Shown here piece by piece: positions 58,108 through 64,000 of a stretch of DNA of 64,000 bases; the stretch's first letter is position 1, and every line of letters begins with the position of its first letter. Position numbers and translations under genes: made by a program. The notes below the pieces were generated by a model. It made no database searches. It had not been told where the DNA came from and saw only the letters and a list, made by a program, of their open reading frames with translations. This DNA is from Umezawaea tangerina (GTDB taxonomy: Bacteria; Actinomycetota; Actinomycetes; Mycobacteriales; Pseudonocardiaceae), in contig NZ_PVTF01000016.1 in assembly GCF_003002815.1 (NCBI RefSeq), positions 62,001 to 126,000 on the forward strand, given 5' to 3'.

Positions 58108-61023
58108 TCATCCGGCCATCGCCGCGGCGAACGTGCTGAGCGCCTCGCGGTCGGGTCTGCTCGTCTTGCTGATCAGGCTCGCGACGTGCTTCTCCACCGT
58201 CCTGGGGGAGATGTGCAGCCGTGCCGCGATGGCCTTGTTGCCCATCCTGTTCGCCAGCAGGCGGAACACTTCGAACTCCCGAACAGTGACTCCGAGCACT
58301 CTGAGCTGACGCGGTACCTGCTCGGTCCCGCTCCGCCGCTGCTGCACCGACGCGCCGACCTGGCGCAGCAGGCCGCGGCACGCGCTCGCGACCGGCGTGA
58401 CCTGCGCCTGGTGGAAGTACTCCTCCGCGCCGCGCAGCCACGTCACCGGGTCGCCCCAGCCGTCGGCGTGCGCCGCCTCGGCGACCAGCCGCAGCCCGAG
58501 GTGGCGCGCCACCGGGAACAGCGAGGCGGTGCGCTGGGCGTCCGCCACGGCCGCGCCCGCCTCCTCCACCCGGCCGTCGCGGCCGAGCAGCACGGCGTGC
58601 GCGAGCTCGGCGAACACCCGGTTCCACCGCATGCCGCTGGCGGCCGCCGCGGTGATCTCGCGGTAGTGCGGCCACCCCGCCCGCCCGGCCAGCACGCCCA
58701 GCAGCAGGTGCAGGCCGTGCCGTCCGGCGAGGTGGAACATCGTGGGGTTCTCGGCCTCGTAGGCCAGCGCCTGGGCCAGCTCGCTCTCGGCGAGGTCGCG
58801 GTCCTCCTCCAGCAGCGCGCAGAACGTCCGCGCCAGGCCGAAGCACAGCGGCAGCTCCTGCGACCCGCCGCCCGCGTGCGACCGGAACTCGGTGATGGCC
58901 TGCTCCATGGCCTGCCGGTTGAGCTGGTGGGCGGCCGAGGTGGCCCTGACCATCAGCAGGTACCGGGTCAGCGGCGTCATCTGGAGCCTGCTGGTGACCT
59001 GGAAGGTCTGGTCGACCAGCTCGGCGGCCTCGTCGTAGCGGCCCAGCAGCACGGCGTGCAGCGACCGGATGGCGTCGACGTTGTACACGATGGTGATCGC
59101 GCCGACCCGCTGCGCCTCCTCGCGGGTGCGGTCCAACGACGTCGTGCTGGCCTCCACGAGCCAGTCGTTGCCCGCGATCCGCACCATGGCGTAGATCTGC
59201 TGGATCGGGAGGTCGTACTCCTCGGCGAGCTTGCGGGCCTGCTCGAAGCACGCGTTGGCCTCGGACAGGTCGCCCTCGCGGGCCAGGATGCCCAGCAGCT
59301 GCCACGCCTCGCAGCCCACCAGCGGCAGCGGCACGCGCTTGGCGGCGTCCACGGCCCGGCGCGCGAGGACGGCGGCGTCGGCGATCCGGTCCGGGCTCTG
59401 GGTGTGGATCGTCAGCGCGGCCGCGATGGCGTCCACGGGGGCGGTCTGCTCGTCGTCGGCGTCGTAGCCGAGCAGCGCGCGGGCGGCGCCGACCTGCGCC
59501 ATCCCGTAGTCCCAGCGGCCCGCGATGTGCGCGACCTTGGCCAGCTCGGTGTGCAGCTTGACCCGCCGCGACCTGGCCAGCCCGGCCCCGGACAGCTCGG
59601 CGAGCGTGTCGGCGAGCCGGATGGCCGACTCGAACTGGCCCGCCTCGGCGAGCGCGGGCAGCAGCGACTCCAGCACGTCCGCCCGGATGTCCGGGTCGAC
59701 GCCGCTGGTCAGCAGCCGGTTCGCCTGGTCGAGCAGGGTGATTGCGGACCCCGCGGCACCGCCCTTGAGCGCCCGGCGGCCCGCCTCGGCCAGCAGCCTG
59801 CCCGCCTGGGCGTCCTCGCCCGCGTCCAGCCGCAGCGACGCGACCAGCGCGCACCACTCGCCGGGCAGGTCCGGATAGGCGATCTGAATGGCGTCGGCGG
59901 TGCGCCCGGAGATCTCCGCGCGGTCGCTGGGGGTCAGCTGCGCGCGCAGCGCCTCGGCGGTGAGCGGATGCCGGAAGGCGTACCAGTCGGGTGCGGGCTC
60001 GTCTGGGGTGACCAGCTGCGCGGCCACTCCCGCGTGCAGGTGGCTGAGCAGTCCGCGGTGGTCCATCCCGGTCACCCGCTGCACCACCGACAGCGGGAAG
60101 CGGTGGCCCAGCACGGCCGCCACGGACAGCAGCTCGCGGCCCTGCGGGCCCAGCCGGTCGGTGCGGTGGGCGATGCTGCGCACCAGCGCGGTCGGCACCT
60201 CCACGCGCAGCTCGCCGAGCACCCGCCAGCCGTCCGGACCCGGCACCAGCAGGCCGCTGCTGACCATGCCGTGCAGCAGCTCCTCGACGACGAACGGGTT
60301 GCCCGCGCTGTCGGCCCACAGCCGGTCGGACACCTCGGCGGGCACCGCGTCGGAGGCGACCTCCAGGCAGGAGGCGGCCATCCGGCGCACCTCCTCGCGG
60401 TCGAGCCGGGACAGCTCCAGCATCACGCCCGCGTCGCGCCGCGCCGCCAGTGTCACCACGTCCAGTGCGTTGCCGGGCTCGGCGCGGATGGTCACCAGCA
60501 GCACGACCGGCTGCTGGTCGAGGTTGTCGGCCAGGTACTCGATGACGGCGAGCGTCTCGGCGTCGGCGTCGTGCAGGTCCTCCAGCACCAGCAGGCACGC
60601 CTGCCGCTTGCCCACGATCGAGAGCAGTCGCAGCACGGCCTCGGCCAGCACCACCAGCGACTCGCCGTTGTGCTGGCCCTCGCCCCGGCTCCACTCCGGG
60701 ATGAGCCTGCCGAGGACGGGCTTGTAGGGGCCCAGCTCCTGCTCGTCGGGTCCCTCGCCGCCGCGGAACAGCGACAGCAGCGCCTCCGACAGCGGGCGGA
60801 ACGGGACCATCGGTCCGATGGTGCTGCCGCGGCCCCGGAGGACCCTCATACCGCTGTCGAACGCCCGGCCCGCGGCCACCCGCGCGAGTCTCGACTTGCC
60901 GACACCCGCTTCGCCGACGAGGAATACGGCGCTGCCGCGGCGGGCCCTGGAGTCTTCCAGTGCCCGCTCCAGCTCGTGGACTTCCTTGTCCCGGCCGACC
61001 ACGACCGGCGCGCGGGTCTGCAT
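58108..61023 (-). CDS. LAL-type (large ATP-binding) LuxR-family transcriptional regulator
   Basis: 971-aa STAND-type regulator. The N-terminal ATPase (from about residue 10) has Walker A GEAGVGKSRL and Walker B ACLLVLEDLHDAD; the middle 500 residues are helical TPR-like; the C-terminal LuxR helix-turn-helix (about 905-965) has LGVTVREFEVFRLLANRMGN and SPRTVEKHVASLISK. Such proteins act as pathway-specific activators in actinomycete clusters. Start set at ATG 61023, where the product begins MQTRAPVVVGRDKEV, typical of LALs; an upstream ATG at 61104 would add 27 atypical residues and overlap the lan terminator. It lies directly beyond the lanthipeptide genes, on the same strand, and may activate them. 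Confidence 0.92.
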   Translation of the reverse strand: MQTRAPVVVGRDKEVHELERALEDSRARRGSAVFLVGEAGVGKSRLARVAAGRAFDSGMRVLRGRGSTIGPMVPFRPLSEALLSLFRGGEGPDEQELGPYKPVLGRLIPEWSRGEGQHNGESLVVLAEAVLRLLSIVGKRQACLLVLEDLHDADAETLAVIEYLADNLDQQPVVLLVTIRAEPGNALDVVTLAARRDAGVMLELSRLDREEVRRMAASCLEVASDAVPAEVSDRLWADSAGNPFVVEELLHGMVSSGLLVPGPDGWRVLGELRVEVPTALVRSIAHRTDRLGPQGRELLSVAAVLGHRFPLSVVQRVTGMDHRGLLSHLHAGVAAQLVTPDEPAPDWYAFRHPLTAEALRAQLTPSDRAEISGRTADAIQIAYPDLPGEWCALVASLRLDAGEDAQAGRLLAEAGRRALKGGAAGSAITLLDQANRLLTSGVDPDIRADVLESLLPALAEAGQFESAIRLADTLAELSGAGLARSRRVKLHTELAKVAHIAGRWDYGMAQVGAARALLGYDADDEQTAPVDAIAAALTIHTQSPDRIADAAVLARRAVDAAKRVPLPLVGCEAWQLLGILAREGDLSEANACFEQARKLAEEYDLPIQQIYAMVRIAGNDWLVEASTTSLDRTREEAQRVGAITIVYNVDAIRSLHAVLLGRYDEAAELVDQTFQVTSRLQMTPLTRYLLMVRATSAAHQLNRQAMEQAITEFRSHAGGGSQELPLCFGLARTFCALLEEDRDLAESELAQALAYEAENPTMFHLAGRHGLHLLLGVLAGRAGWPHYREITAAAASGMRWNRVFAELAHAVLLGRDGRVEEAGAAVADAQRTASLFPVARHLGLRLVAEAAHADGWGDPVTWLRGAEEYFHQAQVTPVASACRGLLRQVGASVQQRRSGTEQVPRQLRVLGVTVREFEVFRLLANRMGNKAIAARLHISPRTVEKHVASLISKTSRPDREALSTFAAAMAG

Positions 61024-61089
61024 GAAGCCGACCTTAGCGAGACTCCGGCATCGGCCGGTTCCGCTATTGGAATGCCGAATGTGGGATGA

Positions 61090-61126
61090 CCGGACTGCCT
61101 GCACCCCCAGGGGGCAGGCAGTCCGG
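61090..61126 (-). terminator. Terminator of the lanthipeptide operon
   Basis: 13-bp perfect stem CCGGACTGCCTGC / GCAGGCAGTCCGG, extendable by CCCC/GGGG around a bulged A. It begins 12 nt after the precursor stop codon. Confidence 0.88.
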
Positions 61127-61138
61127 ACGACAAACCGG

Positions 61139-61354
61139 TCAGACCGGGAATCCGGGGGCGCTGACCGTGGTGAAGGTGTTGGTGCCGTACGCGAGGACGG
61201 CCATGCCCGCGGTCAGCGCGAGACCGGAGAGCACCCTGGTGCGCATGCCGACCCTGGTCCGGTTGGACAGCGCCATCTCCCCTGCGGGGTTGGTCTCGGC
61301 GTCGTCCTCGTCGGTGGCGAGCGCCGGGGCCTCGGTGTGCATGGCGTTGCTCAT
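61139..61354 (-). CDS. Candidate lanthipeptide-type precursor peptide lacking cysteine
   Basis: 71-aa peptide encoded immediately downstream of a LanM gene and ahead of a terminator. Start at ATG 61354 has AAGGAGA 8 nt upstream; an in-frame ATG at 61387, overlapping the LanM stop as ATGA, would give 82 aa. Residues 1-30 are acidic and leader-like (TDEDDAETNPAGEMALSN); NPAGE recalls leaders of the mersacidin/lichenicidin group, from memory. Residues 32-40 are basic; about 41-57 form a hydrophobic helix; the tail is GTNTFTTVSAPGFPV, with four Thr and one Ser. There is no Cys anywhere, so no lanthionine ring can form within it; dehydrated Thr/Ser are the expected change. Confidence 0.72.
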   Translation of the reverse strand: MSNAMHTEAPALATDEDDAETNPAGEMALSNRTRVGMRTRVLSGLALTAGMAVLAYGTNTFTTVSAPGFPV

Positions 61355-61383
61355 CGGGATTTTCTCCTTGTGGGATTCATGGT

Positions 61384-64000
61384 TCATCGGGACTGGAGCA
61401 GGAGCACGGAAGGCACGTGTTCCGGAAAACCTAGGCGGAGCAGTCCGTAGCCGATACCGGACAAACCGGTGAGGAGTCCCGCGGAGGGCACTCCGCCGGG
61501 TGTCCCGCAGCGCGCGCCGTACTGGTCGAGCGCGCCGAGCACGAGCCCGGCCCGGCGGGTCCTCGCCGCGGCCGCCCGCTCGTGGCCGCGCTCGGCGAGC
61601 ACCGCCAGCGACTCCACGACACCGAGCTCGCCGTGGCACAGGCTGAGGTCGCGCAGGGGCTCGTGCACCGCGAGGGCGTTGATGCACCGGTCCAGGTGCA
61701 GCGTGTACGCGTCCAGCGGCTGTTCGGGGTGCGCGACGTGGGCGAGCACCGCGCCGGACAGACCCGCGCACCAGCCGTGGTCGGCCTCGCCGACGGGCAG
61801 CAGGCGCTGGCGCAGGCTGCGGTCGGCGCGCAGCGCGGCCCTCCCGGACACCGCGTGCCGCACCTCGCCGCTGGCGGCGGCGAAGCGCAGCAGCGCCCAC
61901 CCGACCCCGGCGCCGCCGCGGGCGAAGCCGTCGCCGCGCACCGCGCGGTCGGCCAGCCGGTCGGCGAAGCGGTGCGCGAGCTTCCCGGCCTGGGGGAGTC
62001 CGGTCTCGGCGTGCACCGCCACCATCGCGGCCAGTCCGCCCGCGCAGCCGTCGACCACCGACGACGACTCGTCGTCGATGTCGGAGGCCAACTCGACGCA
62101 GGCTTCGAGCCAACGGGGCAGCTCTGGGTCTTCGGGCAGGATCGTGGACAGCCTGGCGAGCGCGTAGGCGATGCCGCCCAGGCCGTGGAAGCCGCCGCTG
62201 CCGACGGCCGGGGCCAGCTCGGGGTCGGCGGCCAGCGCGTCGAGCAGGCCGGGGATCGGCCGCAGCGCGTCGCGGGCGAAGTCGGTGTACCGCTCGGCGC
62301 CGGTCAGCGCGCCCAGCTGGGCCAGGAACAGCGCGACGCCGGTGTAGCCGTTCGACATCCCGGCGCCCATCGGCATGACGGTCCAGTGCCGGTCGTCCAC
62401 CAGTTCCAGGCCCAGCCAGTTGACCCGGTCCCCGTCGACGGTGGCGTGCGCCAGGACCTCGTCGGCGATGCCGCAGGCCGCGACCAGCAGCCGCTGCGGG
62501 TCGGGCACCCCGGCCGCGACCCGTCCGGGCACGACGGCGGCGCCGCGGTGCGCGACCGTCCCCGTCCTGCTGGCCAGCGACGCGGCGATGAGCCACTGCT
62601 GGTCGTGCCGGTCGACCTCGTCCATCCCGGCGATCTTGCGCTCGGCGGCCTCCAGGCCGGACAGCGGCAGCAGGTCGGGGACGCGCAGGCCGTGGGCGGT
62701 CCAGACGTCCCGGCTGCCGGGCCGCACGGTGAACAGCGGCACGTCGCCCGCCCACAGGTCGGCCAGTTCGTGCGGGACCAGCGCGCGCAGCAGCGCGTCG
62801 TCGCGGGCCTCGGTCCACAGCAGGTCCAGCGCCAGGTCGCGGTCCAGCGCGTCGCGCGCCACGTCCGGGTGCGTCGTCTCGTCCAGCGCGGTCGCGTACG
62901 TGCGGGTGGCCCGCGTGACGAACCGCACCGGCACGTCGGCGCACGTCCGCAGCAGCTCCAGCAGCTCGGCGCGGTGGGCGCAGATCGTGTCGTGGCCGAC
63001 GCGGAACCCGGCCAGCAGCGCGGTCTGGTAGTCGCCGGGCTCGGCCTCCTCGCCGCCGAGCCGGGGCCGGTTGTGGGCGCCCGTGCTCGGCGCGGGGCGG
63101 CGGACCAGCCGCATGGTGTCGGTGGCGGGGTCCGCCCAGTCGACCGTCTCGGCGGGGTAGTTCGCGCCGTCGTGGTCGCCGCCGAGGCCGGACAGGTCGA
63201 ACACGCCGTGGTCGCCCAGCAGCATCTGGGGCAGCAGCGCGGTGCGCGTGACCGAGTTCGCCAGCGCGTTCGCCGCCGGGTCCGAGCTCGGCGCGGCGGT
63301 CAGCAGCGTCGGGTGGAACAGGGTCTCGATGTCGATCAGCACCGGCTGGTCGCCGCACGCGATCAGGTTCTCGTAGTGCATGTCCGTGCCGTCCACGGCG
63401 TAGACCAGGGCCAGGACCGCGCCGAGCCGGTGGTAGAACCGGCCGATCCCGCTGACCTCGGAGCACTCCTCGTGCTCGACGAACTCGACCCAGCCGTAGT
63501 CGTCGCCGCGCACGATCCGCACCCGGCGCAGACCCAGCCGGGTGTGGCCGTCCAGCCAGCCCAGCATCTCGTTGAACCGGACGTGCAGGTCGATCGGGCG
63601 CGGCTTGTAGACCAGCCGCGAGCCGTCGGCGAACCGCAGCGTGCACACCGTGCGGCCGCGACCGTGGCAGTCGCCCTGGCCGGACTCCACCGCGATGATC
63701 GCGCCGGGGTCCACGCCGTCGAGCAGCTCCGCCACGATCCGGTCGCGGTCGGCGGCGAACCGGTCGAGCATCTCGCCGTGCGCCTCCGCGGCGTGCAGGC
63801 AGGTCTGGCTGAGCATCCGCGCCAGCACCGGGTAGCGGGCCAGCAGGTCGGACAGGTCGACGCCGTTCACGAAGCAGGTGAACCGGTCGGCCGGGGTCGC
63901 GCCGACCAGCTCGCCGCGCTGCCGGGCCAGGTTCAGCTCGAGCACCAGGGTGCGGGCCGCGGTGCGGACCAGCCGGGACGTCAGCCGTTCGGTGAACGCG
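61384..64000 (-). CDS. lanM: Class II lanthipeptide synthetase LanM (5' end outside window)
   Basis: 871 residues visible of a bifunctional LanM; roughly the first 100-200 are missing beyond the window edge. The dehydratase (DUF4135) part shows the kinase-like LVYKPR, GTDMHYENL and VLIDIETLF motifs used to phosphorylate and eliminate Ser/Thr. The C-terminal LanC-like cyclase has GGFHGLGGIAYAL, GCAGGLAAM and the zinc ligands Cys (GWCAGLSG) and Cys-His (LCHGELG). Both halves therefore look catalytically intact. The stop overlaps or sits 29 nt before the precursor gene, so expression is coupled; gene order lanM then precursor is less common. An in-frame GTG at 63945 is internal, not the start. 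Confidence 0.93.
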   Translation of the reverse strand, partial: AFTERLTSRLVRTAARTLVLELNLARQRGELVGATPADRFTCFVNGVDLSDLLARYPVLARMLSQTCLHAAEAHGEMLDRFAADRDRIVAELLDGVDPGAIIAVESGQGDCHGRGRTVCTLRFADGSRLVYKPRPIDLHVRFNEMLGWLDGHTRLGLRRVRIVRGDDYGWVEFVEHEECSEVSGIGRFYHRLGAVLALVYAVDGTDMHYENLIACGDQPVLIDIETLFHPTLLTAAPSSDPAANALANSVTRTALLPQMLLGDHGVFDLSGLGGDHDGANYPAETVDWADPATDTMRLVRRPAPSTGAHNRPRLGGEEAEPGDYQTALLAGFRVGHDTICAHRAELLELLRTCADVPVRFVTRATRTYATALDETTHPDVARDALDRDLALDLLWTEARDDALLRALVPHELADLWAGDVPLFTVRPGSRDVWTAHGLRVPDLLPLSGLEAAERKIAGMDEVDRHDQQWLIAASLASRTGTVAHRGAAVVPGRVAAGVPDPQRLLVAACGIADEVLAHATVDGDRVNWLGLELVDDRHWTVMPMGAGMSNGYTGVALFLAQLGALTGAERYTDFARDALRPIPGLLDALAADPELAPAVGSGGFHGLGGIAYALARLSTILPEDPELPRWLEACVELASDIDDESSSVVDGCAGGLAAMVAVHAETGLPQAGKLAHRFADRLADRAVRGDGFARGGAGVGWALLRFAAASGEVRHAVSGRAALRADRSLRQRLLPVGEADHGWCAGLSGAVLAHVAHPEQPLDAYTLHLDRCINALAVHEPLRDLSLCHGELGVVESLAVLAERGHERAAAARTRRAGLVLGALDQYGARCGTPGGVPSAGLLTGLSGIGYGLLRLGFPEHVPSVLLLQSR

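Follow-up and report, generated by a model that had tools for sequence, protein, structure and literature searches.

A conserved actinobacterial trio of genes for a LanM synthetase, a mostly cysteine-free precursor peptide and a LAL regulator, and its possible ring-free dehydropeptide product

The DNA analysed here (the window; 64,000 nt) covers positions 62001-126000 of contig C16 in the 10.68 Mb draft genome of Umezawaea tangerina. Close to its right-hand end lies part of a gene for a class II lanthipeptide synthetase (lanM), followed on the same strand by a small gene coding for a Cys-free peptide of 71 aa and by a gene for a LAL-type regulator (Table 1). Our favoured explanation, which we regard as probable though far from certain, is that the LanM serves as a dehydratase and that the trio lanM - peptide - LAL yields a ring-free dehydropeptide. 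The features behind it that can be read from the sequences are the gene order, its conservation, the absence of Cys, an intact dehydratase site, the lack of a C39 match in the genome and, for one clade of relatives, a zinc site that has been lost. A previous, sequence-only reading of the window had offered three explanations: a dehydrated, ring-free peptide, a peptide whose rings close onto the Cys of a partner encoded elsewhere, or a membrane peptide that is not a substrate. The first is now the best supported, because of the shared leader, the position between LanM and LAL, the rule of Cys-free cores, the conserved Thr/Ser tail and the loss of the zinc site in one clade. That reading had missed both the LAL gene and the wide conservation of the unit.

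The window LanM combines a DUF4135 dehydratase and a LanC-like cyclase within one chain (DUF4135, 1.1e-123; LANC_like, 1.7e-29; TIGR03897, 712 bits against a cut-off of 304). The top-scoring solved relative of the LanM profile was LicM2, a lichenicidin synthetase (6st5, E 4.9e-156). By alignment, the enzyme keeps the counterparts of CylM K274, D347, H349, N352 and D364 (KDHND) and, as zinc ligands C-C-H, those of C875, C911 and H912, confirming that dehydratase motifs and cyclase ligands are both present. The catalytic and zinc-binding roles of the CylM residues are described in PMC4550811. In an alignment of 131 LanMs, the dehydratase residues D, H, N and D are found in all 129 sequences that cover those columns, the columns being missing from two rows. 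The longest open reading frame (ORF) for the window enzyme is 1050 aa and reaches about position 64536 in window numbering, as seen in a stretch (L005) that covers the lanM 5' end and the flank beyond position 64000; on our own reading, a start at about 64416 is more likely.

The neighbouring 71 aa peptide is confirmed by its translation to have no Cys at all, and its tail is GTNTFTTVSAPGFPV. The gap between the lanM stop (61384) and the peptide gene is 29 nt, and an alternative in-frame ATG overlapping that stop gives a peptide of 82 aa, likewise Cys-free. A single Cys-free 71-mer would be unremarkable on its own; what exceeds chance is the conservation of this one. The peptide is present in all three genomes of the genus, and FTTVSAPG is identical across three Umezawaea-type genomes. 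In the three pairs of these genomes the nonsynonymous and synonymous rates (dN/dS) are 0.075/0.121, 0.099/0.245 and 0.103/0.336, with dN below dS throughout.

The conservation of gene order was examined in a set of 41 loci, comprising the window locus and 40 others picked by peptide matches. LanM is present in 37 of them, and in all 37 a family peptide ORF lies directly downstream of it (in L074 the peptide is embedded in an ORF running on to 243 codons). A LAL gene is found downstream in 36 of the 37, the remaining one being a contig end. Besides the trio, no gene cluster is shared by more than 17 of the 37 loci, and the ATG of the peptide gene shares 4 nt with the end of lanM, including its stop, in 17 of the 20 loci of Saccharothrix type. 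The four loci without LanM (L070, L072, L073 and L075) were set aside as chance peptide matches, as were L145 and L149, also lacking LanM, from a set of 15 loci. Within three Saccharothrix-type loci (L057, L063 and L066), an inserted stretch breaks the LanM match in the cyclase domain and the gap between peptide and LAL genes is about 1 kb.

A LanM-first search kept the best 80 of 401 confirmed relatives, so that counts on this set are samples, and one of its two patterns (DxSLCHGE) means that zinc-bearing LanMs are over-sampled. The set spans Umezawaea, Saccharothrix, Kutzneria, Lentzea, Kibdelosporangium, Kribbella, Amycolatopsis, Streptomyces, Micromonospora, Kitasatospora and others. LAL lies just downstream in 79 of the 80 loci, with a contig end as the exception, and a family precursor was recovered in 78. 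Across 131 LanM-bearing loci, in which many genomes are counted twice, LAL is downstream in 128 and a family precursor is found in 128. Both precursor counts (78 of 80 and 128 of 131) used a profile seeded with 48 sequences, mostly from the very loci counted. Whole-genome searches scored part of the first-look candidates, and their counts are likewise samples. The peptide (P0001) matched 88 of 390 genomes of the family at E <= 0.05, many weakly, and its profile matched 51 of 397 order-sample and 39 of 394 class-sample genomes at E <= 0.01, many of these matches being short, weak and inside long frames. A plasmid search with the peptide gave zero matches. The cassettes of L212 (Candidatus Melainabacteria), L182 (Nocardia sp.) and L184 (Rhodococcus rhodnii) resemble those of other genera, and these entries may be misassigned or mis-binned.

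Alignments of the precursors show a constant leader element, P-x-G-(E/P/D) and then G-x-R-x-x-A-L-x-G, from which the proposed leader boundary at residue 44 of the window peptide was placed. The core that follows is hydrophobic in many lineages and polar in Amycolatopsis and one Streptomyces group, and the polar cores are nearly always Cys-free. The hydrophobic stretch of the window peptide has a best Kyte-Doolittle mean of 1.69 over 17 residues and 1.29 over 19, moderate values that make a membrane helix possible and borderline. The hydrophobic helix proposed from the sequence alone persists as a moderately hydrophobic stretch that is not universal among relatives. The idea that a built-in membrane helix is what sets the peptide apart finds no support in that form, given this moderate hydrophobicity and the polar-core relatives with the same leader.

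No Cys occurs past the leader in 69 of the 84 distinct precursors from 78 loci of the LanM-first set (the text pattern used to cut leader from core failed on two of the 84). Counted over whole ORFs, 59 of the 84 are Cys-free, some of these ORFs including upstream codons that are probably untranslated. A T(T/S/V)VS-like motif falls within the last 15 residues in 43 of 85 distinct peptides (the 80-locus set plus the window), and the tail Thr/Ser residues are better conserved than the stretch preceding them. A core without Cys is the usual case beside LanM, and the Thr/Ser element at the C-terminus is conserved. The peptide of L227 (Kitasatospora), VRFWKDPEAREA..DHPSGEI, has by eye a mersacidin-type leader. 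Another Cys-free tail type, (D)LP(W/Y)TT(M/F)..., is seen in Streptomyces (L241, L243 and L246-L249), with a leader of the same kind and no hydrophobic stretch.

Nine Streptomyces LanMs (L231-L238 and L223) have both zinc-binding Cys residues replaced, with TGR, SGH, SGR, SGQ, AAQ, SGH, HHR, HHR and VGQ standing in place of CCH, and all nine retain the dehydratase K, D, H, N and D. They form one clade, and the loss requires a single change on the tree. A recognised precursor accompanies eight of the nine. Each of these peptides carries a single Cys, which sits in the leader (RAC, KAC or GAC) and not in the core, and their tail is DTSVSAP (seven) or DTSVSSP (one), compared with TTVSAP in the window peptide. 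That zinc-bearing and zinc-less LanMs are paired with almost identical tails argues that dehydration is the chemistry they have in common.

We propose the following scheme, in which the dehydration and the residues it affects, the cut between leader and core, export and the role of the regulator are all predicted. The lanM, peptide and LAL genes would form one conserved unit, with the peptide as substrate of the LanM. The enzyme would recognise the leader via the PAGE motif and the G-x-R-x-x-L-x-G segment, phosphorylate the Thr and Ser residues of the tail TTVSAPG (T62, T63 and S65 are the proposed sites) and eliminate the phosphate, leaving roughly Dhb-Dhb-Val-Dha-Ala-Pro-Gly (Dhb, dehydrobutyrine; Dha, dehydroalanine). 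As the peptide has no Cys, no lanthionine ring would form, and the product would be a mostly hydrophobic, ring-free dehydropeptide whose processing involves no C39-type LanT. The LAL protein would most likely control the unit or respond to its product. A bolder extension, possible if doubtful, would see in the trio a widespread actinobacterial signalling cassette, in which LanM acts as dehydratase or external-thiol ligase, the product is a ring-free electrophilic or thiol-tagged dehydropeptide and LAL is the receptor, the Streptomyces clade having given up the ring-forming half.

Several observations weigh against the favoured scheme. The 71 aa peptide has no TIGR03898 or Pfam match and is absent from the six TIGR03898 matches (E <= 5) of its genome, while 28 relatives gave one TIGR03898 match (E 0.0067) and one match to a linaridin-like model (E 0.0083). 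Two of the 80 LanM-first loci yielded no precursor. One or more core Cys residues are present in 15 of the 84 distinct precursors, and six related loci (L139-L144) carry the trio with peptides that end in TTCCPT plus three residues, e.g. LTTCCPTFAL. The same genome also holds a second cassette, LanM-precursor-precursor-LAL (L006:7948-14773, contig C2), whose precursors of 85 and 90 aa contain Cys (..TPSVSAPCLGYG.. and ..PPSVSGPCLGYG..). Its LanM is 46% identical to that of the window and its LAL 50-51% identical. Against the TIGR03898 cut-off of 23.5 bits one of its precursors passes (25.6) and the other just misses (22.3); the other four of the six matches in the genome have E >= 0.58, so that only the second cassette comes near or over the cut-off. 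A PF02441 flavoprotein, presumably LanD-like, lies near it. Together with L139-L144, the second cassette indicates that units of a single kind may have Cys or lack it. On the LanM tree, at least 10 changes are required to account for core Cys; this is a quick tree (SH-aLRT only) whose long branches leave the deep branching unsure.

The enzymes also supply points of this kind. In the YKPR motif, Arg stands in place of Lys in 30 of 129 LanMs, the window LanM not being one of them, and the zinc ligands CCH are retained in 129 of the 131 aligned LanMs. Two of the nine Streptomyces LanMs described above keep the His ligand and two have His at both Cys positions, making residual metal binding possible. 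The ratio of cyclase to dehydratase divergence is 0.69 in the window clade (six Umezawaea and Saccharothrix LanMs), compared with 0.98-1.13 in five other groups and 1.50 for two zinc-less LanMs. With its cyclase diverging less than its dehydratase, the window clade does not look as if this domain were vestigial, and such constraint would be compatible with a role for the zinc site that requires no peptide Cys.

One such use would be the addition of an external thiol. The LanM would dehydrate the tail and the zinc cyclase would add free Cys, mycothiol or another low-mass thiol to it, producing a linear, thioether-decorated peptide, as a bacterial counterpart of LanCL. We think this unlikely, although the retention of CCH by enzymes most of whose precursors have no core Cys and the constraint on the cyclase would both fit it. 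PMC9934072 describes intermolecular addition of glutathione to Dha/Dhb by human LanCL1/2, but also states that glutathione is not bound by NisC and HalM2. Zinc-bearing LanMs were favoured by the SLCHGE in one of the two search patterns, and the nine Streptomyces enzymes lack both Cys ligands, eight of them beside near-identical tails.

Should the peptide be left unmodified, it might sit in the membrane as a small protein and anchor, assist or protect the LanM or the LAL. Its hydrophobic stretch does follow a basic segment, and the conserved unit includes no transporter. The leader element is, however, common to Cys-bearing precursors of related cassettes and by eye resembles the mersacidin/lichenicidin leader, and the polar-core relatives of Amycolatopsis have the same leader and position, which weakens the idea of a non-substrate peptide. 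The Thr/Ser residues of the tail are, moreover, better conserved than the stretch preceding them, and we regard this alternative as quite improbable.

Very improbable, in our judgement, is a ring between the dehydrated tail and a Cys of another peptide. The second cassette, with its own LanM and LAL, would offer two candidate partners in its Cys-containing precursors. Two single-contig, Saccharothrix-type genomes (G071 and G080) count against the idea, since each has one LanM gene by the LanM model and one clear leader-bearing gene, and both precursors (L046 and L045) are Cys-free. The leader model gave one strong match in each genome (E 4.7e-14 and 4.1e-14) and nine others with E >= 0.029 inside longer frames; one row of this model had one mistyped residue, and 150 of about 1000 first-look candidates were scored per genome. 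A partner with the same leader is therefore unlikely there, while one with a different leader would escape. Lanthionines are not known to join two precursors. Least credible of all is a decaying lanthipeptide cluster whose precursor has lost its Cys: SAPC of the second cassette and SAPG of the window could conceivably be related by a Cys-to-Gly exchange, but the peptide is conserved over many genera, with dN below dS in every Umezawaea-type pair and an invariant FTTVSAPG.

Table 1. Features of the lanM - peptide - LAL locus, in window numbering
Feature	Position	Strand	Basis
LAL-type regulator, ORF of 998 aa (AAA_16 ATPase, C-terminal LuxR/GerE helix-turn-helix)	58108..61104	-	Pfam; conserved downstream of lanM
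Perfect hairpin of 13 bp in the peptide-LAL gap, without T run	61090..61126	-	direct reading and stem search
Gene for 71-aa Cys-free precursor peptide (stop included)	61139..61354	-	ORF translation and homologues
Proposed core, residues 45-71, LALTAGMAVLAYGTNTFTTVSAPGFPV	61142..61222	-	alignments and inference
Conserved tail TTVSAPG, residues 62-68	61151..61171	-	alignments
Proposed leader, residues 1-44 (NPAGE motif ... G-M-R-T-R-V-L-S-G)	61223..61354	-	boundary inferred
AAGGAG, Shine-Dalgarno-like, 5' of peptide start	61364..61369	-	direct reading
lanM, class II lanthipeptide synthetase, 3' part; extends past window end	61384..64000	-	profile matches

The regulator matches AAA_16 (1.9e-24) and GerE (1.1e-9), and fits the definition of an LAL protein (N-terminal AAA ATPase, C-terminal LuxR helix-turn-helix, about 900-1000 aa); from our own reading, its start is likely at about 61023. 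The LAL match at L150 falls into two pieces and the open frame there is 682 aa long, which may reflect a frameshift in genome G064. What had been taken for a terminator after the peptide gene is the hairpin of Table 1; it has no T run, and the LAL gene continues on the same strand. Similar hairpins of 13-14 bp, with a CTGGGGGTGC-like strand, lie in the peptide-LAL gap of the window and of L038, L039, L052 and L159, and those like the window's include, among the matches listed, U. endophytica and several Saccharothrix. A perfect stem of at least 9 bp is found in 31 of 125 such gaps, a raw count without a shuffled baseline. The hairpin could be an operator or attenuator.

Beyond position 64000, the ORFs that passed a codon-bias filter were read over about 14.5 kb of L005. 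In this search, which was not exhaustive, no second precursor, Cys-containing or otherwise, was seen at the 5' end of lanM, nor were a LanT, a LanJ or a protease. Upstream of lanM and divergent from it are genes for a B12-binding protein, a fusion of MutE and a tRNA-synthetase-like domain and a major facilitator superfamily transporter (Pfam on all three), and an ORF whose translation resembles a nonribosomal peptide synthetase (NRPS). The fusion protein (L005:6506-8785) is unusual in joining a methylaspartate mutase E chain to a class II tRNA-synthetase-like domain; its clustered homologue in L039 is 760 aa long. Encoded next to the B12-binding protein and the NRPS-like ORF, it may perhaps make 3-methyl-asparagine for the NRPS. 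No LanKC was noticed among the L005 translations, on which no LanKC model was run, and no YcaO among ten proteins scanned. The C39 peptidase model PF03412 had no match at E <= 0.001 in the genome (draft, 99.5% complete), so a C39 transporter of LanT type elsewhere was rejected at this threshold.

Should no ring form, nature would have uncoupled the two halves of what LanM does, and the zinc-less Streptomyces enzymes would be candidates for dehydratases that work alone. With a regulator as constant partner, a role as peptide signal is open to direct test, and genomes that hold a single LanM and a single clear precursor are clean test systems.

Among known systems, the mersacidin/lichenicidin class II (LicM2, TIGR03898 leaders) has the same LanM architecture and an HPAG/NPAGE leader motif. 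The window system differs from it in its lack of Cys, and hence of a predicted lanthionine, in a genome where PF03412 detected no C39 domain at E <= 0.001, in a conserved LAL and in a peptide that TIGR03898 does not match. Bicereucin, carnolysin and rodencin are reportedly LanM products in which dehydro-residues are important outside rings and reductases give D-amino acids. The parallel with bicereucin drawn in the sequence-only reading goes no further than the predicted dehydration: Pfam scans of a few neighbours showed no LanJ, with no dedicated or genome-wide search made for one.

LanM action on Cys-free peptides is already known in outline, as PMC7268733 and PMC11251773 indicate. According to these papers, some LanM substrates among the prochlorosins and cyanotins have no Cys. 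Prochlorosins and cyanotins have Nif11-type leaders and many substrates, often encoded far from the enzyme gene; here one substrate gene adjoins lanM. Clusters of LanM and LanKC with Cys-free LanM-associated precursors (Zhang 2015, 10.1128/AEM.00635-15, cited by PMC7268733) likewise pair LanM with Cys-free precursors in Actinobacteria; in our trio, LAL is constant and LanKC was not noticed. The survey of PMC7268733 does not count these Cys-free precursors as lanthipeptides, and a family such as ours could slip through similar filters. A LAL-linked LanM-peptide family was not found among the titles and abstract openings searched, and overlap with the families of Zhang 2015 is possible.

The last comparison concerns the dehydrazole LanMbC (CcaM), in which, according to PMC10676384, the cyclase domain attached to the DUF4135 dehydratase has no zinc ligands. 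The cyclase domain of CcaM belongs to class III, and the enzyme depends on azoles that a YcaO makes and can dispense with the leader. The window LanM differs in keeping its zinc ligands; it is the zinc-less Streptomyces clade that resembles CcaM, with its DUF4135 dehydratase joined to a cyclase domain in which both zinc-binding Cys are replaced.

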